From contig QLTX01000002.1 of NCBI GenBank assembly GCA_018725175.1, positions 1 through 38,549 on the forward strand: DNA of 38,549 nt, in the 5' to 3' direction. A program made the position numbers and the translations under genes. How positions within the stretch are numbered: position 1 is the stretch's first letter; every line of letters starts with the position of its first letter. The notes beneath the pieces are model-generated. The model had not been told where the DNA came from, made no database searches, and saw nothing but the letters and a program-made list of their open reading frames with translations. Of this stretch, positions 6,600-25,538 are shown piece after piece. The DNA comes from Candidatus Psychracetigena formicireducens. Lineage in GTDB: Bacteria > Coprothermobacterota > HKB111.

Positions 6600-7795
6600 A
6601 AATACCTTTTTATCGCTTCTAACATCAGGTTACTTAGCTCAAAAGAGATATGTTCGCGATCAAATCTATTTTTTAGGGAATCATTTACTGGTATTTTTTG
6701 ACAACCATTCTCATAGTTTTTTACCAGGACATTTAACATCGCTTTGCTGTCAAAAAAGGGAACCAGTTCACCTTTGCCGTACTCTTTAAGAACACGAAAC
6801 ACGAAACCACCCTGTAAAGCCTGAGCAATAATATATTTATCCAGGAAAATATAATCAAAAATCTTAGTTGTTGGTTCGTAAGGATGTTCTCCAGCTATTA
6901 ACAAACATATTTTGCTACCCTTAATGTATTTTAAGACTTCCTTATAAGGTTTAAATCCAACTATCTGGCAATACTGTTTTAAGTTTAGGTCTTTAATGAT
7001 AGTTAATATTGGTTCTTCGGGGATTCCCACCCAGACAAACCGCGTATCAGCAGTAGTAAGGGAAAACCTGTCAATAAATAACCGATAAGCTTCAAAAAAG
7101 GAGCGGGGATTTCTGAAACTATCAAATTTTCCGGTATATACTATATCAAAGGGGGTAAAGTTTATTCCTTCTCCTATCTCGGAAAGATCCTCTCTGTCAA
7201 CTCCATTGGGCAGAGTGACAAATTGTTTCTCTTTTATATATTTATATTTTTCCTGGTACATAGCGGTAGCTTCTTCAGTTACATTAACTATTAGGTCAGC
7301 TTCTTTTATAATTAGAGGTTCCAGTTTCTTTTCCAGCCAATGAGCTAACCTGGAAAATGAGGTAACCCGTTTTTTTCTATAGGGATTTAAAGACCAGGGG
7401 TCTCTGAAATCTAAAATATAGGGTAAATGATAAATTTTTTTTATTAACCAGGCTAATATCCAATGGTAAAAAGGTCCACCGGTAAAGTAAATTATATCCG
7501 GCTTTTGTTTTCGTAATTCTTTTTTCAGGCTAAACCAGAGTAGTGGCCACCAGTAAAATCCTTCTTCGTTCACCCCTGGGATAAAAGAAGGTAGCCTGTC
7601 GGTTCTAACTATCTCAACTCCTGCTAAATCATTTAGTAACTCTGGATTTTTATAAGAGTAGTATTTTTCTTTGACGGTAATTACTTTAATATTCCACTTA
7701 AACTTTCTGAGATACTTAGAGAATTTAGCAACCCTCTGGGCACCAACTACCCCATCAGGAGGAAAATGATAAGCCACCATCAGGATGTCGGGCAT
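6587..7795 (-). CDS. Glycosyltransferase, GT4-like
   Basis: A 402-residue protein starting PDILMVAYHFPPDGVVGAQR, the usual beginning of GT-B enzymes with a loop for the donor phosphates. The central part has IVYTGKFDSF at the start of the C-terminal Rossmann-like domain. The EX7E motif is not obvious; the region ICLLIAGEHPYEPTTKIFDY has the KxFDY form seen in a subset of GT4 relatives. A membrane-lying role next to the Wzy-like protein is likely. It overlaps the genes on both sides by 13-16 bases. Donor and acceptor are unknown. Confidence 0.8.
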   Translation of the reverse strand: MPDILMVAYHFPPDGVVGAQRVAKFSKYLRKFKWNIKVITVKEKYYSYKNPELLNDLAGVEIVRTDRLPSFIPGVNEEGFYWWPLLWFSLKKELRKQKPDIIYFTGGPFYHWILAWLIKKIYHLPYILDFRDPWSLNPYRKKRVTSFSRLAHWLEKKLEPLIIKEADLIVNVTEEATAMYQEKYKYIKEKQFVTLPNGVDREDLSEIGEGINFTPFDIVYTGKFDSFRNPRSFFEAYRLFIDRFSLTTADTRFVWVGIPEEPILTIIKDLNLKQYCQIVGFKPYKEVLKYIKGSKICLLIAGEHPYEPTTKIFDYIFLDKYIIAQALQGGFVFRVLKEYGKGELVPFFDSKAMLNVLVKNYENGCQKIPVNDSLKNRFDREHISFELSNLMLEAIKRYLWRK

Positions 7796-9429
7796 TCTTC
7801 TTCAGCTATATACACCAGGGTGGCAGATAACAAAGTAAAAAAGAATACCAGTCCCGGAGCATCCCAGAGATTTTCTACCATACTATGGAGAAAAAATGCC
7901 AATAGGGTTATCAATGCTCCTATAGACAGCACTTTTTTACTGAAATAGTTACTGGTAGTTATAATAAAAAAACCATACCGGAATAGATATAGGAAAAGAC
8001 CGACAAAAGCTAAATATCCTAATATCCCGGTTTCTGCTAAAACTCTTAGATGAGAACTATCCACTGATATACCCTGAAAAAATCCGTGCTTAATAGCTGG
8101 TCCACCCCCAAAAGTGCCAGGACCGCTACCCAGTAATAGGTTAGCTTTTATATAATCTAAAGCCATCAGCCAGCGAAATAATCTTCCACCTCCCATAAGA
8201 CTTTTTTCCAGATATTCAGGAGAAAAAAGGAATAACATTCGGTAAACCAGAGAAGGCAGAATCAAAAAAGAAAGTAACCCGCCGATACCCAGCAGTATTA
8301 TTAAAAATGGTTCCACCAGGACACTTAATAACCCAATAGAAGCTCCCAGAGCCAGGAAGGCGCCACGGGAAAAAGTAAAGGATAAGGATAAGATTGTGGT
8401 AATAAATACCATAAACCAGAATATTTTGCTTAAATAATGTTTTTTAACCAGTAACAAAGAGATTGAGGTGCCTATCCCAAAAAGTAGGTAAGCTGCAAGA
8501 AAATTCGGACTACCAATTATGGAAAAGGCTCGTGTCCTTATTACTAAGGCTTCATAATCTATATCCACCCAGCCTGGAGGCATCTCTATTCCCAGGAAAT
8601 ACTGGGCAATGCCAATTATTCCTAAAAACATGCTGCTTAGAGCAATAGCAGAAAAGCTTACTTCTACACTACCGCTGGTTTTAAGAAAAACATAGGCGAT
8701 AAAGAAAAGGAGGGTGGGAAAAACTAGGCTGCGTACACCCTCAATATTGATGGAAAGTGGGTATGGTGATAATAAAGCGCTAAACCAGATTATTAGGTAA
8801 AAAAAGATTAAATAAAAAGCGAAAGGTGATAGTTTTACTTTATTTTTAAGGCCAACGGCTAATCCTAAAATCAGGAAAGAAACTAAAAATAATTCATCCC
8901 AGGCTCCCTTTAGAGGGGTAAAACGTCGGAAAAAGATGTCCAGGAATGGGAAAAAGGACCAGAAAATAATTACCATATTTCTCTTCAGGGTATCCCAGAA
9001 ATTCTCCAGGTTCCTAAATATCCAGCTGTTCTCAATATCCAGGCGAGGATAAGCCAGGTATAGGGAAAACAGTAATAGAGAAAACATTATTAAAAACAAA
9101 TACAAAATCAGTGGGATAGCAGTAATATAAATTAAAAGTAAAATTACCAAGGCTAGGAAAAGTGATATATACAATATAAGAAACCTTAAAGATATACTTA
9201 ACCAGGCTTCATAAAAATTATTCAGTAAAGTATATATGAACGAGTTTTCTATTACTGTTTTTATATAAGCAAAAACCCTGGAGATAAATGAGCCCGGTAT
9301 CAAATGAAGCAAAGGAAAGCCTGGTTTATTTTTCAACCAGTTTAGGATGAAACTTTCCTGGACTTTTTTTAGAACAAAACTATCTTCTAAAAATACTATT
9401 TTCTTTAAGTTGAATAAGTTCATTGCCAT
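7780..9429 (-). CDS. O-antigen ligase/Wzy-like polymerase membrane protein
   Basis: A 549-residue protein with about a dozen hydrophobic segments after a soluble N-terminal tail of some 70 residues. The central part carries the O-antigen ligase/polymerase domain: RTRAFSIIGSPNFLAAYLLF, then FTFSRGAFLALGAS, and a periplasmic loop region with GSGPGTFGGG and DSSHLRVLAETGILGYLAF. Such proteins join lipid-linked glycan repeats or transfer them to acceptors outside the membrane. Here it probably polymerises or transfers the wall glycan. Its start lies 50 bases inside the LCP gene with only a weak GGAT box; no good downstream start was found, so I accept the overlap (ATG at 9423 is also possible). 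Confidence 0.82.
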   Translation of the reverse strand: MAMNLFNLKKIVFLEDSFVLKKVQESFILNWLKNKPGFPLLHLIPGSFISRVFAYIKTVIENSFIYTLLNNFYEAWLSISLRFLILYISLFLALVILLLIYITAIPLILYLFLIMFSLLLFSLYLAYPRLDIENSWIFRNLENFWDTLKRNMVIIFWSFFPFLDIFFRRFTPLKGAWDELFLVSFLILGLAVGLKNKVKLSPFAFYLIFFYLIIWFSALLSPYPLSINIEGVRSLVFPTLLFFIAYVFLKTSGSVEVSFSAIALSSMFLGIIGIAQYFLGIEMPPGWVDIDYEALVIRTRAFSIIGSPNFLAAYLLFGIGTSISLLLVKKHYLSKIFWFMVFITTILSLSFTFSRGAFLALGASIGLLSVLVEPFLIILLGIGGLLSFLILPSLVYRMLFLFSPEYLEKSLMGGGRLFRWLMALDYIKANLLLGSGPGTFGGGPAIKHGFFQGISVDSSHLRVLAETGILGYLAFVGLFLYLFRYGFFIITTSNYFSKKVLSIGALITLLAFFLHSMVENLWDAPGLVFFFTLLSATLVYIAEEECPTS

Positions 9430-17581: not shown

Positions 17582-17605
17582 TTCTCTAACCTCCATTTTA
17601 TTTAG

Positions 17606-17678
17606 TGCGCCCGAGAGGATTCGAACCTCCAGCCTACGGCTCCGGAGGCCGTCGCTCTGTCCATTAAGCTACGGGCGC
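17606..17678 (-). tRNA. tRNA-Arg, anticodon CCG
   Basis: The reverse strand folds as a standard 73-nt tRNA: acceptor stem GCGCCCG/CGGGCGC, anticodon stem ACGGC/GCCGT with loop CTCCGGA (anticodon CCG, reading CGG), T loop GGTTCGAATCC and discriminator A. CCA is not encoded. It lies 11 bases after the lysS stop and 24 bases before degV on the same strand, with no terminator or promoter seen, so it is probably cut out of a longer transcript. Confidence 0.96.
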
Positions 17679-17689
17679 CCATTTAAATA

Positions 17690-19153
17690 TTATATCTTAT
17701 CCGGCGGCCTTAGGTGAGGGAAAAGAATAACTTCCCTGATAGAATTTAAACCTAAAATGACCATAGTTAGTCTATCCATGCCAATTCCCAATCCCCCTGT
17801 AGGAGGTAGGGCATATTCCAGAGCTAAAAGGTAATCTTCATCAACCTGATGAGCTTCAACATCTCCTTTTTCCCTATTTTTAAGTTGAGCTAAAAATCTA
17901 TCCCGTTGAATAAAGGGGTCGTTTAACTCCGTAAACCCATTAGCTATCTCCATGCCCCCTATAAACAACTCAAATCTATCGGTATATTTTGGGTTGTCTG
18001 CCCTCTCTTTAGCTAAGGGGGATAATTCTACCGGATACCCGGTAATAAAAGTTGGATTAATCAATTGAGACTCAACCTTTTCTTTGAAGAGTTTATCCAC
18101 TATATTTTCCCAGGTTAGAGGTCTATTCAGAGATATACTTTCAGCTTTTAGTACTCTTTTAGCCTGGTTTAAGTCCCGAAGCTCTTCCATATCCGTTCCA
18201 ACCTTTTGATAAAAAATATCTCGGAATTCCATAGCAGTAAAAGGTGTTAAAAAATCTATAGTTACTCCTTCCCAAACGGTTTTGCCATCAGGAAGAAGCT
18301 GTTTAACAACATACTTTATTATTTCCTCGGTTAATTTCATCATAGCTCGGTAATCCTGAAAAGCCCAATAAATCTCAATCATAGTAAACTCCGGGTTATG
18401 AATGGTAGAGATACCTTCATTACGAAAATTCTTACTAACTTCAAAAACTTTATAGATACTACCGACTACCAATCTTTTTAAATACAATTCAGGGGCTATC
18501 CTTAGATACAGATCCATATCCAAGGCTTCATGATGGGTAATAAATGGTTTAGCTAAGGCTCCCCCAGCTAAACTCTGTAAAACCGGTGTTTCAACTTCAA
18601 GAAAATCATTTTTATAAAGATAGTTTCTAATATGTTCCAGCATTTTACTTCGCTTGACAAAATTCTCCTTAACCGTTGGGTTAACCAATAAATCCAGGTA
18701 GCGATAGCGGTATCTTTGCTCTATATCTTTTAAGCCATGCCATTTCTCAGGGAGAGGCAGTAAGGCTTTAGCCAGAAAGTGCCACTCCTTGACTTCCAGG
18801 GTGATTTCTCCCCTTTTGGTTCTAAATAGTGGGCCCTTTAAGCCAAGAATATCACCTACATCCACCACTTCCTTAAAAAAATGATAGTCGTCAGGATTAG
18901 CTGTACTTTCTTTGATATATGCCTGGATTCTACCAGTTTCATCAACTATATCCAGAAATACCGACTTGCCATGGTCCCGGAAAGCCATCACTCTTCCGCC
19001 AATTTTGTGAACCAATTCTACATTTTCCTTCTCGGAAAAATCAGCTTTAATATGCTGAATAGATTCAGTATCAGGAAAAGGATGACCATAAGGGTCTATC
19101 CCTTGCTGAACTAAACGATTAAGCTTATTAAGCCTCTGTTGTTTCTCGTCCAT
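17690..19153 (-). CDS. lysS: Lysine--tRNA ligase (class II)
   Basis: A 487-residue class II lysyl-tRNA synthetase. The N-terminal OB-fold anticodon domain spans about residues 55-160 (KIGGRVMAFRDHGKSVFLDI), followed by the catalytic core: motif 1 around VETPVLQSLAGGALAKPF, motif 2 KNFRNEGISTIHNPEFTMIE, and motif 3 GGLGIGMDRLTM. Length is usual for bacteria. AAAGG stands 5 bases before ATG 19153, which lies 26 bases inside greA, so the two are coupled. greA-lysS is a familiar order in Bacillota. Confidence 0.97.
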   Translation of the reverse strand: MDEKQQRLNKLNRLVQQGIDPYGHPFPDTESIQHIKADFSEKENVELVHKIGGRVMAFRDHGKSVFLDIVDETGRIQAYIKESTANPDDYHFFKEVVDVGDILGLKGPLFRTKRGEITLEVKEWHFLAKALLPLPEKWHGLKDIEQRYRYRYLDLLVNPTVKENFVKRSKMLEHIRNYLYKNDFLEVETPVLQSLAGGALAKPFITHHEALDMDLYLRIAPELYLKRLVVGSIYKVFEVSKNFRNEGISTIHNPEFTMIEIYWAFQDYRAMMKLTEEIIKYVVKQLLPDGKTVWEGVTIDFLTPFTAMEFRDIFYQKVGTDMEELRDLNQAKRVLKAESISLNRPLTWENIVDKLFKEKVESQLINPTFITGYPVELSPLAKERADNPKYTDRFELFIGGMEIANGFTELNDPFIQRDRFLAQLKNREKGDVEAHQVDEDYLLALEYALPPTGGLGIGMDRLTMVILGLNSIREVILFPHLRPPDKI

Positions 19154-19640
19154 CTAAACCTTTCTTTATTTCCAGAACTACATAATTTAATCTACCAATT
19201 GGAGCATCAAAATAAACTTGATCTCCTGGTTTTTTGTTAATTACAGCAAGACCGAGCGGGCTATTAGCAGAAATATAACCACGCCGGGGGTCAACTTCTT
19301 CCACATTTCCCACTATTACATACTCTTCCTCATTCTTAGAATCCAGGCTTTTCAATACTACTCTACTTCCAATAGTAATTGAATCTGAAATTACATCTTT
19401 ATACTCTAAAACTTTAGCCACCCGAAGAATCTTTTCAATCTCCATGATACGGCCTTCAACAAAAGCCTGTTCGTTCTTTGCTTCTTCGTACTCGGAGTTA
19501 TCGGTGATATCTCCGTACTCTTTAGCTTGAATAATTCTTTCTGCTACTTCTTTTCTTCGTACAGTCCTTAAAAATTCCAGTTCCTCTTCTAAACGAGTCA
19601 GTCCTTGCTGAGTTATATATACATCTTTATTATCAACCAT
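19128..19640 (-). CDS. greA: Transcription elongation factor GreA
   Basis: A 170-residue GreA. Family members enter the RNA polymerase secondary channel and stimulate cleavage of backtracked RNA. The N-terminal coiled coil (about residues 10-78) has the conserved tip DITDNSEYEEAKNEQAFVE with the acidic residues needed for cleavage; the C-terminal FKBP-like domain has GSRVVL, YISANSPLGLAVINKKPGD and a Val/Leu-rich end. It is about 10 residues longer than usual at the C-terminus, where it overlaps lysS. A strong AAGGAGGT precedes the ATG. Confidence 0.96.
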   Translation of the reverse strand: MVDNKDVYITQQGLTRLEEELEFLRTVRRKEVAERIIQAKEYGDITDNSEYEEAKNEQAFVEGRIMEIEKILRVAKVLEYKDVISDSITIGSRVVLKSLDSKNEEEYVIVGNVEEVDPRRGYISANSPLGLAVINKKPGDQVYFDAPIGRLNYVVLEIKKGLDGRETTEA

Positions 19641-19645
19641 TAAAA

Positions 19646-20725
19646 CTACCTCCTTCTGTTCTTTATAGCATTTTCTTTTATTTTATAAATATCACTGGAG
19701 TTCAATACTTTTTCAAAACACCTGAATCCAGCAAGTTTAAATCCATGTTTATTGGCAAATCCACTTATTTCTTTAACTTTTTCTATATCCAGGTCCTTTC
19801 CTATAGAAAAGGAATCATACCTTTTTTCTAGAGTTAATATCATAGTTTCCGACATACAAGCGTAAGCCAACCCGGGAGGAAAACCAAAATTAAAGTTAAA
19901 CGAGGGATTTCCTGGAACCTGAACAACTCCTCCTTCAATCACCAATACATCATTTCTAGCTTTAGCAACTTTGGGTGAAACATCTCTGGGCCTGGCAACA
20001 TCACATACCACTGACCCAGGTTTTAACATTTCGGGGTGGATAACCTCTTCTACGGCGCTGGAAACTGTAATTATGGCATCAGCTTCTTTTACTCCTTCTA
20101 CAATGGAGGTTGTGTAGGTAATATCCAGATTTCTGTCCTGAAAACTACTAATTAATGCCTTAGTTTTATCAGCATTTCTGCCAACCAGGTAGGTTTTCTT
20201 AAAAGACGGCGCCATCAATAAAGCTACAGCTTTTCCTATTGACCCGGTTGCTCCTACTACTGCTAAGGTAGCTCCTTCTGCCTCCACCTCCAGTAATTTT
20301 AAAGCTTCATAAGTTCCTTCTATAGCTGAAGCTACTGTATAGCTATTTCCAGTAGTTATATCAATATCCAGGTGTTTTTTTATGGTGATACCCCCATCTC
20401 CTACTACCGAGGTGAAGGCACCCAGTCCTACAATTTTTGCCCCAGCTTCTTGAGCTAATCTTCCGGACTCAATTATTTTGTTATATACATATGGTAAAGG
20501 TAAATCCACCATTTGCTGGGTTATCAGGGGGCAGGCAATGAAAAAACCTTCAATTTCTTCTCCAGTAAAAGTAGATTTAATTCCCTTAATGTGGGAAACG
20601 ATAAATGGTTTTTTTCTCTTAACATATTCCAACACCAGGGAAGAAGGAAGATAGTTAGCCCAACTGTATTTCCTGGTTAGGTCCTGGTAGCTTATCGGGT
20701 GTAAAATAAAAGCAAATTTTTCCAT
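19646..20725 (-). CDS. Acyl-ACP-reductase-like/shikimate-dehydrogenase-like oxidoreductase (COG5322 type)
   Basis: A 359-residue Rossmann-fold oxidoreductase. It resembles the cyanobacterial long-chain acyl-ACP reductase family, which reduces acyl-ACP to fatty aldehyde with NADPH. The NAD(P) motif is VVGATGSIGKAVALL (157-171). The TTGNSYT segment (124-130) and the ACMSETMILTLE segment (289-300) match conserved blocks; Cys290 aligns by eye with the Cys that forms the acyl-thioester in the cyanobacterial enzyme. Automatic annotation often says shikimate dehydrogenase, which I think is misleading. It follows its partner gene by 11 bases and precedes greA by 5. Physiological substrate is unknown. 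Confidence 0.7.
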   Translation of the reverse strand: MEKFAFILHPISYQDLTRKYSWANYLPSSLVLEYVKRKKPFIVSHIKGIKSTFTGEEIEGFFIACPLITQQMVDLPLPYVYNKIIESGRLAQEAGAKIVGLGAFTSVVGDGGITIKKHLDIDITTGNSYTVASAIEGTYEALKLLEVEAEGATLAVVGATGSIGKAVALLMAPSFKKTYLVGRNADKTKALISSFQDRNLDITYTTSIVEGVKEADAIITVSSAVEEVIHPEMLKPGSVVCDVARPRDVSPKVAKARNDVLVIEGGVVQVPGNPSFNFNFGFPPGLAYACMSETMILTLEKRYDSFSIGKDLDIEKVKEISGFANKHGFKLAGFRCFEKVLNSSDIYKIKENAIKNRRR

Positions 20726-20736
20726 TAATTATCCTT

Positions 20737-21636
20737 TTAATTCAGTTTTTCAATCCGGGGTTTTATTAAGATTTTTTGTAGAAACTCTTCTACCTCTTCT
20801 TTTGTGATTTTCTCCTGAGGTTTTCCTAAAAAAGCTACCATTAAACCTTCTAATACATTAGTACCAAAAGACCGGTCCTCCCAAAGGGGAGTGGTAGTAA
20901 TCAACAAGGAAACACCGCGGTTTCTAAGCATTTCCACATCTTCTGAGGTAATAGTGTTGGTTAAAATAATTTTATTTTCTAAATTGAAAGGTGCATATCT
21001 CCTTATCTGGTGAAAATCGCCAGCAATGACCTGCGCCCAGTGGAAAAAATGTTCATACCTTGGTTTTACTTCCTCCTGCTTCTTCCCTACCGGATATAGC
21101 ATCCTGATGGGAAGATGAGTTAAGATAGGCAGTAACACTGCAGCCGCAATATTGACGGCTTTCAGCGTCCTCATAGGAAAGGGTAAGTTCAGGGCAAATA
21201 AAAAGTCCCCAAAAACCACTGAACACCCCATATTATAAAAGGCTTCCGCTATTCCGTATCTATCAAGGGCGGTGGTAACTAAAACCCGGGAGTTTGCTGA
21301 AATAATTCCTTCCTCAATTAAATTAATTACCACTTTCTTCTCCCAAACTGCCTTAATGAGGGAACCATCAGTAACAAATGATTTCTTAATGGCCTTTTTA
21401 AATTTTAATGACTCAAGAATAACATACTTTTTCCTACCAGCCTGAAGGTATAAATCTGTACCTCCCAGTCCAATGGAGTCAACTTCACCATCAAGTTGTT
21501 TTATCAGTTGCATCATTTTACCCAGGTCACCATCGGTTCCAACCCGAGAAATATATACTTTTTCACCTAAAACTTCTAATTCCACAGAATAGTTTCTTTT
21601 AGAAGAACCCAGGCTAACACTTACAATCTTTTTCAA
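20737..21636 (-). CDS. Conserved protein of unknown function, often annotated quinate 5-dehydrogenase
   Basis: A 299-residue protein without a function I can prove. It starts MKKIVSVSLGSSKRNYSVEL, has IGLGGTDLYLQAGRKKYVI near residues 56-74, VLVTTALDRYGIAEAFYNMG in the middle and TTTPLWEDRSFGTNVLEGLM near the end. I see no clear GxGxxG nucleotide motif, so the quinate dehydrogenase name used for such proteins looks unsupported. I chose TTG 21636, which has AGAGG 6 bases upstream, over TTG 21642. It is the first gene after a promoter and is 11 bases from the acyl-ACP-reductase-like gene, so the two probably act together. Confidence 0.7.
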   Translation of the reverse strand: MKKIVSVSLGSSKRNYSVELEVLGEKVYISRVGTDGDLGKMMQLIKQLDGEVDSIGLGGTDLYLQAGRKKYVILESLKFKKAIKKSFVTDGSLIKAVWEKKVVINLIEEGIISANSRVLVTTALDRYGIAEAFYNMGCSVVFGDFLFALNLPFPMRTLKAVNIAAAVLLPILTHLPIRMLYPVGKKQEEVKPRYEHFFHWAQVIAGDFHQIRRYAPFNLENKIILTNTITSEDVEMLRNRGVSLLITTTPLWEDRSFGTNVLEGLMVAFLGKPQEKITKEEVEEFLQKILIKPRIEKLN

Positions 21637-21673
21637 AAGCAACCTCTTAAATAAGTATCAATGATAACTTTTA

Positions 21674-21827: not shown

Positions 21828-21902
21828 TGGAGCCGGTGAAGGGACTTGAACCCCCAACCTGCTGATTACGATTCAGCTGCTCTACCATTGAGCCACACCG
21901 GC
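21828..21902 (-). tRNA. tRNA-Thr, anticodon CGT
   Basis: The reverse strand folds as a tRNA with acceptor stem GCCGGTG/CACCGGC, D arm GGCTCAATGGTAGAGC, anticodon stem GCTGA/TCAGC with loop ATCGTAA (anticodon CGT, reading ACG), T arm GGGTTCAAGTCCC, discriminator U and an encoded CCA (21828-21830). About 125 bases of sequence without a convincing gene lie between it and the next promoter. Any frame read through this stretch starts inside the tRNA and is not a gene. Confidence 0.96.
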
Positions 21903-22227: not shown

Positions 22228-23229
22228 ATGCATCCCATTGGTGTAGTACAATTCGGTCTTGGTCCCATAGGAAAGGGGATAGCTCGAACAATCTGTGAAA
22301 AAAAGGAGCTAACTCTGGTGGGTGGTGTGGACATCAACCCCCAATATCTTGGCAAAGACCTTGGTGAGGTTATAGGTGTAGGTCCTCTTGGCGTACCGGT
22401 TAAGGGTAGTTTATCAGAGCTTCCCCTGGATAAAGTGCAGGTGGTAGCCCACACTACCCAATCATACATTCCCCAGATACATTCTCAGCTGGAAGAAATC
22501 ATTAGACTAAAGCTACATGTGGTTTCTACTACCGAAGAGTTGTCCTTTCCTTTTATTAAAAATAAGGAAATAGTAGAGAAACTTAATAAGTTAGCTTTAG
22601 AAAACCAGGTAACTGTTCTGGGGACTGGGGTTAATCCTGGCTTTTTGATGGATTCTCTACCACTCTTTTTAACTTCAGTATTAAAAAAAGTTAACCATAT
22701 TCGGGTTTTAAGACTGATGGACGCAGCTAAAAGGAGAGGTCCTTTCCAGGTTAAAATAGGTTCAGGTTTGTCTATAGAAGAGTTTAAAAGAAGGGTGGCT
22801 GAGGGTAGCCTCGGACATGTTGGTTTAGAAGAATCTGTATATTTCGTAGCCACCTCTTTAGGCATGAACATAGCCAGTTACATTGAAACCATTGACCCGG
22901 TAACTACTGATGTGTTAATTAAAACCGAACATGTGGAAGTAGAAGCTGGTAAAGTAAGGGGTTTATACCAGGTGGGTACGGCCCTTAACCAGGAAGGAAA
23001 AGAACTTATAAAGCTTGAATTCAACGCCTTTCTTAATGCTACTGACCCACATGATTTGATTGAAATCACCGGCGAACCATCCCTTAAACTACTTATCCCC
23101 GGTGGAACGCCAGGTGATATCGCTACTACTTCTATTGCTGTTAACTGCATTCCCAAAGTCCTGAGCGCTCCCAGGGGCTTAATTACCATGAAAGATATTT
23201 CCCTAAGCCATAACCTGGGAAGTTTTTAA
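22228..23229 (+). CDS. 2,4-diaminopentanoate dehydrogenase-like (Ord/DapB-fold) oxidoreductase
   Basis: A 333-residue NAD(P)-dependent dehydrogenase with a DapB-like N-terminal domain (VVQFGLGPIGKGIARTICEK, dinucleotide motif GLGPIG). The segments VVSTTEELSFP, VTVLGTGVNPGFLMDSLPL and GSLGHVGLEESV are like those of Ord, the ornithine-fermentation enzyme that oxidatively deaminates 2,4-diaminopentanoate to 2-amino-4-oxopentanoate. The other ornithine-pathway genes (ortAB, oraSE) are not in view; tdh and kbl follow instead, 15 bases away. The true substrate may therefore differ. A strong AGGAGGT precedes the ATG. Calling it dihydrodipicolinate reductase would be wrong, as the C-terminal half is unlike DapB. 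Confidence 0.75.
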   Translation: MHPIGVVQFGLGPIGKGIARTICEKKELTLVGGVDINPQYLGKDLGEVIGVGPLGVPVKGSLSELPLDKVQVVAHTTQSYIPQIHSQLEEIIRLKLHVVSTTEELSFPFIKNKEIVEKLNKLALENQVTVLGTGVNPGFLMDSLPLFLTSVLKKVNHIRVLRLMDAAKRRGPFQVKIGSGLSIEEFKRRVAEGSLGHVGLEESVYFVATSLGMNIASYIETIDPVTTDVLIKTEHVEVEAGKVRGLYQVGTALNQEGKELIKLEFNAFLNATDPHDLIEITGEPSLKLLIPGGTPGDIATTSIAVNCIPKVLSAPRGLITMKDISLSHNLGSF

Positions 23230-23244
23230 ACCCGAGAGGTAGCT

Positions 23245-24279
23245 ATGAAAGCTCTTGTAAAAAGAAATTTTGAACCGGGAGTTAGTTTAATGGAAGTAGA
23301 AAAACCTACCCCCTCCAAAAATGAAGCCCTAATAAAAGTTAGCTACTCTTCTATCTGTGGCACTGACTTACACATATATAAGTCGGATGTTTGGGCTCGT
23401 AGCAGGATAAAACCTCCCTTGATTACTGGTCACGAAATGGGGGGCATAGTGGTGGAAACAGGAAGCGAAGTGACCCAGGTTAAGGTCGGGGATAGAGTAG
23501 CGGTTGAGACCCATATTGTTGACTGGTCCTGCACTCTCTGTCGCCAGGGAAAAGCTCACCTGTGTAGTTCAACCAGAATTCTGGGAATAGACTGTAATGG
23601 GTCCTTCGCTGAATTTGTGTCTATACCGGAAACTAATTTGATAGTTAACTCACCGATAGTACCTGATGAATTCTTACCCCTGGAAGAACCGCTGGGGAAT
23701 GCGGTCCATGCAGCCAGCATAACCCAGGTTTCTGGTAAAAATGTATTGATTGTAGGTGGTGGACCCCTGGGCCTCTTACTTCTCCTGGTTTTAAAAGGCT
23801 ATGGAGCTTCCCAAGTGATAGTATCTGAACTTAACGATTATCGCCTTACCCTAGCTAAGAATTTAGGTGCGGATTTAGTGATTAAACCCGATGAACTTAA
23901 TCTGTTAAACATTGCCAAAGAAGCTACCCGGGGAGAGGGTGTGGATGTATCTTTTGATATGTCAGGACATCCCCTCGGTATAAATGATGCACTAAAAGCT
24001 CTTAAACCAGGTGGCCATATGGTCTTTTTTGGTTTACCAACTTCCGACATTTCCCTTAATATCACTGATGATATAATATTTAAAGGCATAACCTTACACG
24101 GGGTTATCGGTCGCCAGATGTTTACCACCTGGTACGAAGTTCTAAGCCTCTTAGAAAATAAAAAAATAGATTTATCTCCCCTTATTACCCATAGATTCCC
24201 CTTATCCGAAATTGATAAAGCTATGGAGGTTATGTCTCAGGGAAGGTCAGGTAAGATAATCCTGAATCCGGAACTTTAA
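23245..24279 (+). CDS. tdh: Zinc-dependent L-threonine 3-dehydrogenase-like alcohol dehydrogenase
   Basis: A 344-residue medium-chain dehydrogenase. Tdh oxidises threonine with NAD+ to 2-amino-3-ketobutyrate. Catalytic zinc ligands C38, H63 and E64 are in SICGTDLHIY and TGHEMGG; the NAD motif is VLIVGGGPLGLLLL. Structural zinc ligands appear as D93, C96, C99 and C107 (IVDWSCTLCRQGKAHLC): the first of the four usual Cys is Asp. The next gene encodes the partner Kbl, which is strong support for threonine dehydrogenase. Sorbitol or butanediol dehydrogenase are alternatives from sequence alone. Confidence 0.85.
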   Translation: MKALVKRNFEPGVSLMEVEKPTPSKNEALIKVSYSSICGTDLHIYKSDVWARSRIKPPLITGHEMGGIVVETGSEVTQVKVGDRVAVETHIVDWSCTLCRQGKAHLCSSTRILGIDCNGSFAEFVSIPETNLIVNSPIVPDEFLPLEEPLGNAVHAASITQVSGKNVLIVGGGPLGLLLLLVLKGYGASQVIVSELNDYRLTLAKNLGADLVIKPDELNLLNIAKEATRGEGVDVSFDMSGHPLGINDALKALKPGGHMVFFGLPTSDISLNITDDIIFKGITLHGVIGRQMFTTWYEVLSLLENKKIDLSPLITHRFPLSEIDKAMEVMSQGRSGKIILNPEL

Positions 24280-24344
24280 CGGTTTATAAAAGGAAGGTGG
24301 TAGTACTTAAATAATTTTGAATAACCTGATGGAGGTGCAGTAAT

Positions 24345-25538
24345 ATGAAAAACATCCTGGAAATGTTTCTTATGAGTAATTTGAAACAGTTAGAAGAAGA
24401 AAATCTTTTAACCTATCTGAAAGTAATTTCATCTCCCCAGGGCCCCTGGGTAGATATTGGTGACAGAAGGCTTTTGAATTTATCCTCAAACAATTACCTC
24501 GGTTTTAATACTCACCCGCTGATGATTAAATCAGCCATAGAGGCTACCGAAAAATTAGGGGTTGGTTCAGGTGCCGTAAGAACTATTGCTGGTACTTTAC
24601 AGTTGCATATGGAGCTGGAAAAAGAATTAGCTCATTTCAAGCAAGTTGAATCAACTCTAGTTTTCCAATCAGGATACGCAACCAACCTGGGCATTATTCA
24701 AGCATTGTTAACAGAAAATGATGTCATCGTTTCAGACTCTCTTAATCATGCTTCTATCATAGATGGTGCCAGGCTTTCTCGGGCAAAAATATTAGTTTAT
24801 CAACATACTGATATGGAAAACCTGGAGGAAAAATTAGTGGAAGCGAGAAACCTCAAACCTGGAAAAGTTTTGCTGGTTACCGATGGGGTTTTCAGTATGG
24901 ATGGAGACATCGCCCCTCTTCCGGAAATTGTTAAACTTGCAGATAGCTTTGAAGCCATCTTAATGGTTGATGATGCCCATTCCTCGGGAGTTTTAGGCAG
25001 AAATGGCCGGGGCTCAATTGACCACTTTAACCTTCATGGTAGGGTGGATATACAGGTGGGAACGTTATCTAAAGCTCTGGGAACTATGGGCGGTTATGTA
25101 GCCAGTAGTGGCTTATTGGTAAACTACCTGATACAAAGAGGAAGGCCGATGTTGTTTTCTACCTCCCACCCTCCTGGAGTAGTGGCTGCCACCATTACCG
25201 CTGTGAAAATACTAAAGTCACCTGAAGGTGAGCACCTTATTAATACACTCTGGGAGAATACCACTTACTATAAAGGAAGGCTTGCCATAATGGGATTTAA
25301 CACCGGTATTTCTCAAACTCCCATAATCCCAATAATAATCGGAGAAGCCAGCCTTGCTCGCGAATTCAGTCAAAAACTGTTCCAGGAAGGAGTTTTCGCT
25401 CAAAGCATAACCTTCCCTACAGTTCCCAGGGGAAAGGCTCGCCTGAGAACAATTGTAACCGCCACACACTCTCGTGATGACCTGGATTTTGCTCTGAATA
25501 AAATGGAAACTGTAGGTAAAAAACTGGGAATCATTTGA
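24345..25538 (+). CDS. kbl: Glycine C-acetyltransferase (2-amino-3-ketobutyrate CoA ligase)
   Basis: A 397-residue PLP enzyme of the alpha-oxoamine synthase family. Kbl cleaves 2-amino-3-ketobutyrate with CoA to glycine and acetyl-CoA. The PLP Lys is K243 in VGTLSKALGTMGG; D209-D210-A-H212 (MVDDAHSSG) binds the cofactor; NLSSNNYLGF is the substrate-site motif. By sequence alone 8-amino-7-oxononanoate synthase (BioF) is possible, but linkage to tdh and absence of biotin genes favour Kbl. ATGGAGGTG lies before the ATG; the 65-base gap after tdh holds a second GGAAGGTGG box with no start. Confidence 0.88.
   Translation: MKNILEMFLMSNLKQLEEENLLTYLKVISSPQGPWVDIGDRRLLNLSSNNYLGFNTHPLMIKSAIEATEKLGVGSGAVRTIAGTLQLHMELEKELAHFKQVESTLVFQSGYATNLGIIQALLTENDVIVSDSLNHASIIDGARLSRAKILVYQHTDMENLEEKLVEARNLKPGKVLLVTDGVFSMDGDIAPLPEIVKLADSFEAILMVDDAHSSGVLGRNGRGSIDHFNLHGRVDIQVGTLSKALGTMGGYVASSGLLVNYLIQRGRPMLFSTSHPPGVVAATITAVKILKSPEGEHLINTLWENTTYYKGRLAIMGFNTGISQTPIIPIIIGEASLAREFSQKLFQEGVFAQSITFPTVPRGKARLRTIVTATHSRDDLDFALNKMETVGKKLGII

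Follow-up and report, generated by a model that had tools for sequence, protein, structure and literature searches.

Introduction

In the acyl-ACP reductase (AAR) of Synechococcus the acyl chain is transferred to residue C294, and in PigE and TamH, which serve pigment and tambjamine synthesis, a class III aminotransferase is fused to a thioester reductase and the aldehyde is then aminated; TamH takes C12-acyl-ACP through the aldehyde to the C12 amine (PMC9594044). The partner of cyanobacterial AAR is the aldehyde-deformylating oxygenase ADO. ADO is an all-helical protein that docks on AAR.

A fatty alkylamine is also needed for the N-glyceroyl alkylamine phosphoglycolipids of Thermus, Meiothermus, Deinococcus and Moorella. 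An N-glyceroyl alkylamine phosphoglycolipid is the major phospholipid of Thermus and Meiothermus, and a related one is found in Deinococcus (PMC3035268). A passage of PMC13274423 that cites Bale 2025 states that Moorella thermoacetica contains N-glyceroyl alkylamines. In 2022 a study of Thermus still wrote of the enzymes that supply the third hydrophobic chain of its lipid that they "have not been identified" (PMC9636437), and we found no later paper naming them in the open-licence literature. Here we describe a gene pair, PAR and RED, that probably belongs to a pathway of this kind.

The PAR-RED locus and its neighbours

The window, the whole stretch of DNA analysed here (38,549 nucleotides), corresponds to contig G000:C112 in the draft genome (G000, 1.75 Mb) of an uncultured anaerobe. 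On its minus strand PAR is followed after 11 bases by RED, RED after 5 bases by greA, and greA overlaps lysS (Table 1). Both reading frames of the preliminary description were recovered where it had placed them, including the PAR end at 21636, and the 11-base gap it had reported is exact. The mechanical ORF for PAR begins at TTG 21642 and stops at 20737. The TTG at 21636 is the better start, since an AAGAGG lies six bases upstream of it and the homologues start at the same place (MKKxVSVSLGSS). A single promoter for the two genes, also proposed earlier, is plausible by their spacing, but promoter-like matches did not rise above shuffled sequence (14 found, 15.7 expected).

Table 1. Features of the PAR-RED locus, in coordinates of the window
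Feature	Position	Strand	Evidence
RED, acyl-ACP-reductase-like oxidoreductase, 359 aa, ATG start	19646..20725	-	ORF reading, family searches, AlphaFold2 model (pLDDT 90), Foldseek
PAR, uncharacterised partner protein, 299 aa counted from TTG 21636	20737..21636	-	ORF, homologue alignment, AlphaFold2 model (pLDDT 94.3)
Codon of RED Cys290, predicted acyl-thioester Cys	19856..19858	-	alignment to AAR C294 region and PigE CMAETI; conservation
RED Rossmann motif VVGATGSIGKA, residues 156-166	20228..20260	-	sequence and alignment
RED TTGNSYT block, residues 124-130	20336..20356	-	sequence and alignment
AAGAGG, ribosome-binding-site-like, before PAR TTG start 21636	21643..21648	-	read from sequence
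PAR hydrophobic helical stretch, residues 155-190 (numbered from TTG 21642), ending in conserved LP..YP.G..Q block	21073..21180	-	alignment and model helices
greA, conserved neighbour, without assignment to the pathway	19128..19640	-	
lysS, conserved neighbour	17690..19153	-	

The array is bracketed by two tRNA genes on the same strand, tRNA-Thr(cgt) at 21828-21902 upstream of PAR and tRNA-Arg(ccg) at 17605-17678 after lysS. A divergent plus-strand cluster at 22228-25538 holds genes that by eye resemble 2,4-diaminopentanoate dehydrogenase, threonine dehydrogenase and 2-amino-3-ketobutyrate CoA ligase, and probably serves amino-acid fermentation. The public genome of Candidatus Lithacetigena glycinireducens belongs to the same genus and its PAR is 90% identical; the nearest cultured relative found was Coprothermobacter platensis, of the same phylum in the genome classification used.

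Bacillota, Actinomycetota and Coprothermobacter share the gene order PAR-RED-greA-lysS. This conservation, together with a weak similarity of RED to hemA (E 7e-9), could be taken to place PAR and RED in a greA-lysS process of transcript cleavage or lysyl-tRNA metabolism, for example acting on an aminoacyl-tRNA like the distant relative glutamyl-tRNA reductase. We consider this highly unlikely. The gap between RED and greA has a median of 231 bases, against 13.5 for PAR-RED, and a gap as short as 4-8 bases occurs in just two loci, both from the Lithacetigena/Coprothermobacter lineage. Thermaceae and Armatimonadota are among the groups in which PAR and RED lie apart from greA-lysS, and the associations with aminotransferase, PlsY and SRPBCC genes described below are lipid-like. 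The likeness to glutamyl-tRNA reductase was put down to the shared Rossmann domain. Because RED and greA are usually some 230 bases apart and the genes are separate in other phyla, we read the link as an inherited neighbourhood only, and the functional tie to greA/lysS expression suggested earlier finds no support.

RED resembles acyl-thioester reductases

By sequence (phmmer) the closest PDB relative of RED is PigE (4ppm, E 6e-34); acyl-ACP reductase 6jzq matched with E 9e-20. In these alignments Cys290 of RED, within ACMSETM, lies opposite the C294 region of AAR (ACFAEAM) and the CMAETI of PigE. When an AlphaFold model built from 44 homologues was searched with Foldseek, ranks 1-7 were all AAR over the full length (E down to 1.7e-24, TM 0.74-0.82), and the next match was TAD of carmabin biosynthesis. 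The preliminary description had listed a Rossmann motif, the TTGNSYT block and Cys290, and had equated this Cys with the acyl-enzyme Cys of AAR; all three elements are present, and the equation agrees with the alignments and with the predicted fold. Cys290 is conserved in 42 of the 44 aligned REDs and in 175 of 181 RED ORFs over all fetched loci, a count that includes re-fetched copies.

RED falls short of the named families. It scored 102.2 bits against the TIGR04058 equivalog for long-chain acyl-ACP reductase (cut-off 449.7) and 204.5 bits against NF053554 for PigE/TamH (cut-off 850). Since the former score is far below its cut-off, we file RED as AAR-like and not as a TIGR04058 equivalog. 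Sequence, predicted fold and the putative catalytic Cys support an acyl-thioester-reductase-like protein, AAR-like but not a proven acyl-ACP reductase. With cyanobacterial AAR (TIGR04058; PDB 6jzq, 6jzu and 6jzy) it shares the full-length fold, the GxxGxxG motif and the position of the acyl-enzyme Cys, whereas identity is only about 25% and the partner is PAR instead of ADO. The reductase domain of PigE/TamH (NF053554, 4ppm) is closest to RED, but in G000 reductase and aminotransferase are two separate genes.

The PAR family apparently carries a misleading "quinate dehydrogenase" name. If this name were right, both proteins would be quinate/shikimate dehydrogenases, and RED over its NAD-binding domain does pass the Pfam Shikimate_DH cut-off (51 against 24.3 bits). 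RED is, however, far below the aroE equivalog cut-off (26.7 against 200 bits), Foldseek gave E 1e-24 for AAR against 2e-6 for AroE/YdiB, and PAR has no match to any dehydrogenase. We therefore regard a dehydrogenase role for the pair as extremely improbable.

PAR has no close relative of known structure

No Pfam, NCBIfam or PDB match was found for PAR as a single query, nor for 70 homologues against Pfam and PDB. The preliminary description had noted that PAR has no visible NAD motif despite its name, and this is supported. Comparing the profiles of PAR and RED revealed no significant homology between them (probability 0.5%). The model from 70 homologues has an alpha/beta fold in which two halves are Rossmann-like, and it also shows the hydrophobic helical stretch of Table 1. 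The best Foldseek matches were PBP-I periplasmic sugar-binding proteins with TM about 0.3-0.4; all were loose two-Rossmann-domain matches (rmsd 8-14 A), and no close solved relative was found. The predicted fold gives no catalytic hint.

Thirty positions are invariant over the 70 sequences, with R33, D37, D63, D92, K97, E101, R128, D146, Q189, D209, T230 and N262 among the polar ones. We propose that the helical stretch may contact an alkyl chain. An ADO-type deformylating oxygenase was considered for PAR and set aside, the model being alpha/beta and not ferritin-like all-helical. In one Coprothermobacter relative (G003) PAR is duplicated in tandem upstream of RED (L024:6033-6962 and 6970-7872).

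PAR and RED occur together

We surveyed 386 bacterial genomes, most of them representing separate families, and in this census found PAR in 42 and RED in 53. Every one of the 42 PAR genomes also had RED (Fisher p ~1e-46; by family 23/23, p ~3e-25, both p-values ignoring phylogeny), so that the two genes are not mostly separate, as they might have been, but strictly co-occur. In nine census genomes they are fused as one protein, the sequence being read for one of these. In the Deinococci, the class of the Thermaceae, PAR and RED were both present in 61/61 genomes.

Among 80 named PAR loci, RED lay within 400 bases downstream in 40, and the median PAR-RED gap was the 13.5 bases given above. Of 36 genomes searched because no normal RED adjoined PAR, 31 had RED elsewhere; in the other five, all draft assemblies, none was found, which does not prove its absence. 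The strict co-occurrence, tight spacing and fusions together show that the partnership is real and old.

RED without PAR was seen in 11 census genomes. Three of these carry stand-alone AAR-like proteins of ~340-380 residues (G054, G198 and G329), and three carry PigE-like large proteins (G036, G195 and G355), PAR being a point of difference from the PigE/TamH systems. The 0.6-Mb genome G207 has RED at C1:72027-73064 and neither PAR nor the aminotransferase described below. In plasmid records PAR was not found; the REDs there were all distant, and most carried an annotation as class III aminotransferase proteins.

An aminotransferase and an SRPBCC protein accompany the pair

Between PAR and RED in three Actinomycetota (L066, L070 and L091), and likewise in G286 and G149, lie genes for a class III aminotransferase (AT) and for an SRPBCC protein. 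The latter belongs to Pfam Polyketide_cyc, "cyclase/dehydrase and lipid transport", a lipid-binding fold class; its weak match to RatA toxin is far below the cut-off (45 against 258 bits). G000 encodes its AT on another contig than PAR-RED, at G000:C205:9740-10951, with the SRPBCC gene directly after it. This AT is 53% identical to the operon-borne AT of L066, and the AT-SRPBCC pair is also present in five relatives of G000, Coprothermobacter included. The two-gene module envisaged in the preliminary description is too narrow: the aminotransferase and the SRPBCC protein belong to it too, and they point to an amine as the fate of the aldehyde.

In G000:C205 (L268:6657-10966) the AT-SRPBCC pair is followed by an uncharacterised FAD-binding protein (PF21688) and then by apgM, a phosphoglycerate mutase of archaeal type. 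In Coprothermobacter (L271-L273) the FAD protein likewise comes after the pair, and an adenylosuccinate-synthetase-like gene comes next. The phosphoglycerate mutase gene near the Lithacetigena pair could hint at a phosphoglycerate donor, or its position may be chance.

An AT of at least 360 bits was found in 18/20 PAR genomes and in 0/38 genomes without PAR and RED, where the best score was 316. The two PAR genomes that had no high-scoring AT were G067 and G006, the latter 87% complete. Among the Deinococci, an AT of this subgroup was present in 11/11 genomes of the Thermaceae and family f259, genomes being assigned to Thermaceae by similarity to named bins. In a tree all PAR-associated ATs fell outside the argD-like control clade, as did the control sequences G047 and G043.

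Several observations would also fit a RED aldehyde that is not aminated but, for instance, is disposed of or serves as precursor of an alcohol, an ether or a plasmalogen, with AT a co-occurring putrescine or amino-acid enzyme. No AT adjoins PAR-RED in the studied locus. In families f260 and f261 of the Deinococci, PAR and RED are present and AT of this subgroup is found in 0/8 genomes. The best named family for AT is putrescine aminotransferase (PRK11522/TIGR03372, 457-516 bits), and given this resemblance AT could have another substrate than a fatty aldehyde. AT nevertheless stays below that equivalog cut-off (612) and, unlike putrescine aminotransferase, is linked to SRPBCC, PAR and RED. Its position between PAR and RED in several genomes, and its tracking of PAR rather than of RED alone, speak against use without amination. 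For the known plasmalogen and ether enzymes PlsA and Ger, BadF-type activation domains have been described rather than an AAR-like reductase (PMC13274423). We consider a fate without amination unlikely, all the more in view of the fusions that follow.

RED fusions and loss of Cys290

Other PAR genomes encode RED and an aminotransferase as a single fused protein, 850-1000 residues long, which is the architecture of PigE/TamH. Most of these genomes have no high-scoring stand-alone AT, G328 being an exception. Four genomes (G462, G474, G478 and G479) carry a stand-alone RED as well, and residue 290 of that copy is A in G462, S in G474 and W in both G478 and G479; in the first two a Cys stands two residues before this position. 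The readable fused RED domains keep the Cys, the G478 fusion being split over contigs. The stand-alone REDs that have lost Cys290 are L098:10932-11927, L121:4821-5882, L204 and L207.

Loss of Cys290 where an AT-RED fusion coexists would be expected if both forms of RED catalyse one and the same reaction and the fusion has taken it over; it connects the stand-alone RED with amine formation. Amination is the likely fate of the aldehyde: AT lies between PAR and RED in several genomes and tracks PAR, elsewhere RED is fused to an aminotransferase, and the stand-alone RED loses its Cys in genomes with such a fusion.

PAR is retained in every one of these cases, usually unlinked. This argues that PAR is not merely an activator of stand-alone RED. 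We weighed whether PAR is a non-enzymatic, obligate docking or channelling partner that controls aldehyde delivery from RED, like ADO on AAR. The short PAR-RED spacing and the natural PAR-RED fusions would be in keeping with this, as would two genomes (L098 and L121) in which a Cys-less RED is still found beside PAR, as if kept as a non-catalytic partner. A docking role alone sits poorly with the persistence of PAR in genomes that carry AT-RED or PlsY-RED fusions or have no stand-alone RED left; in addition many of the invariant polar residues of PAR look catalytic, and its alpha/beta model is unlike the ADO fold. We judge such a role quite unlikely, and a catalytic role for PAR the more likely of the two, since PAR is kept where RED and AT are fused and unlinked from it.

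The RED of Thermaceae forms one protein with a PlsY glycerol-3-phosphate acyltransferase domain, and a named Thermaceae bin matches this protein at 79% in the RED part. One PlsY-RED fusion was seen outside the Deinococci, in L208 (G476, Armatimonadetes L133), and is 32% (PlsY) and 51% (RED) identical to the Thermaceae form. The neighbours of AT-RED and PlsY-RED fusions contained no recurrent lipid gene, and no linked glyceroyl or phosphatidyl transferase was found. When the AAR family model was run against 14 named control genomes, Synechococcus, Thermus composti and Deinobacterium chartae were the only ones matched.

Discussion

Building on the fold, catalytic residues, co-occurrence, fusions and gene linkage, all observed by computation, we hold with moderate confidence that PAR and RED belong to a pathway that makes fatty alkylamines. 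In RED, Cys290 would accept the acyl group of a fatty thioester (probably acyl-ACP), and reduction with NAD(P)H would give the fatty aldehyde. AT, with PLP and a glutamate-type donor, would aminate the aldehyde to a long-chain alkylamine. Both steps are proposed from homology to characterised enzymes. The SRPBCC protein, to judge from its fold class, may carry the chain. PAR, the only component that invariably accompanies RED in this pathway, would then act on the chain, most likely by joining the alkylamine to a small polar molecule (a glyceroyl donor, for instance) or by handing it between enzymes, and further enzymes would carry out phosphatidyl and sugar transfer. What results is most likely an N-glyceroyl alkylamine (phospho)lipid like those known from Thermus, Meiothermus, Deinococcus and Moorella. 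The presence of PAR and RED in 61/61 genomes of the class of the Thermaceae would fit this.

A bolder version can be put forward only tentatively, and we think it doubtful as a whole: that PAR founds an enzyme family of its own, which joins the alkylamine made by RED and AT to glyceroyl and so supplies the third hydrocarbon chain of the N-glyceroyl alkylamine lipids, and that PAR-RED-AT-SRPBCC is the missing lipid pathway across Deinococci, Bacillota, Actinomycetota, Armatimonadota and Coprothermobacterota/Lithacetigenota.

The analysis names four candidate genes, with a clear reaction order, for a third lipid chain that was unassigned to enzymes in 2022 (PMC9636437). If the pathway is true, the producers of such lipids would be predictable from genomes, and PAR, an unannotated and highly conserved family, gains a testable role. 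Gene knockouts are routine in Thermus thermophilus. Alkylamine lipids are unusual three-chain membrane lipids, and RED and PAR look like half of a widespread pathway that may lead from fatty acid through aldehyde to amine.
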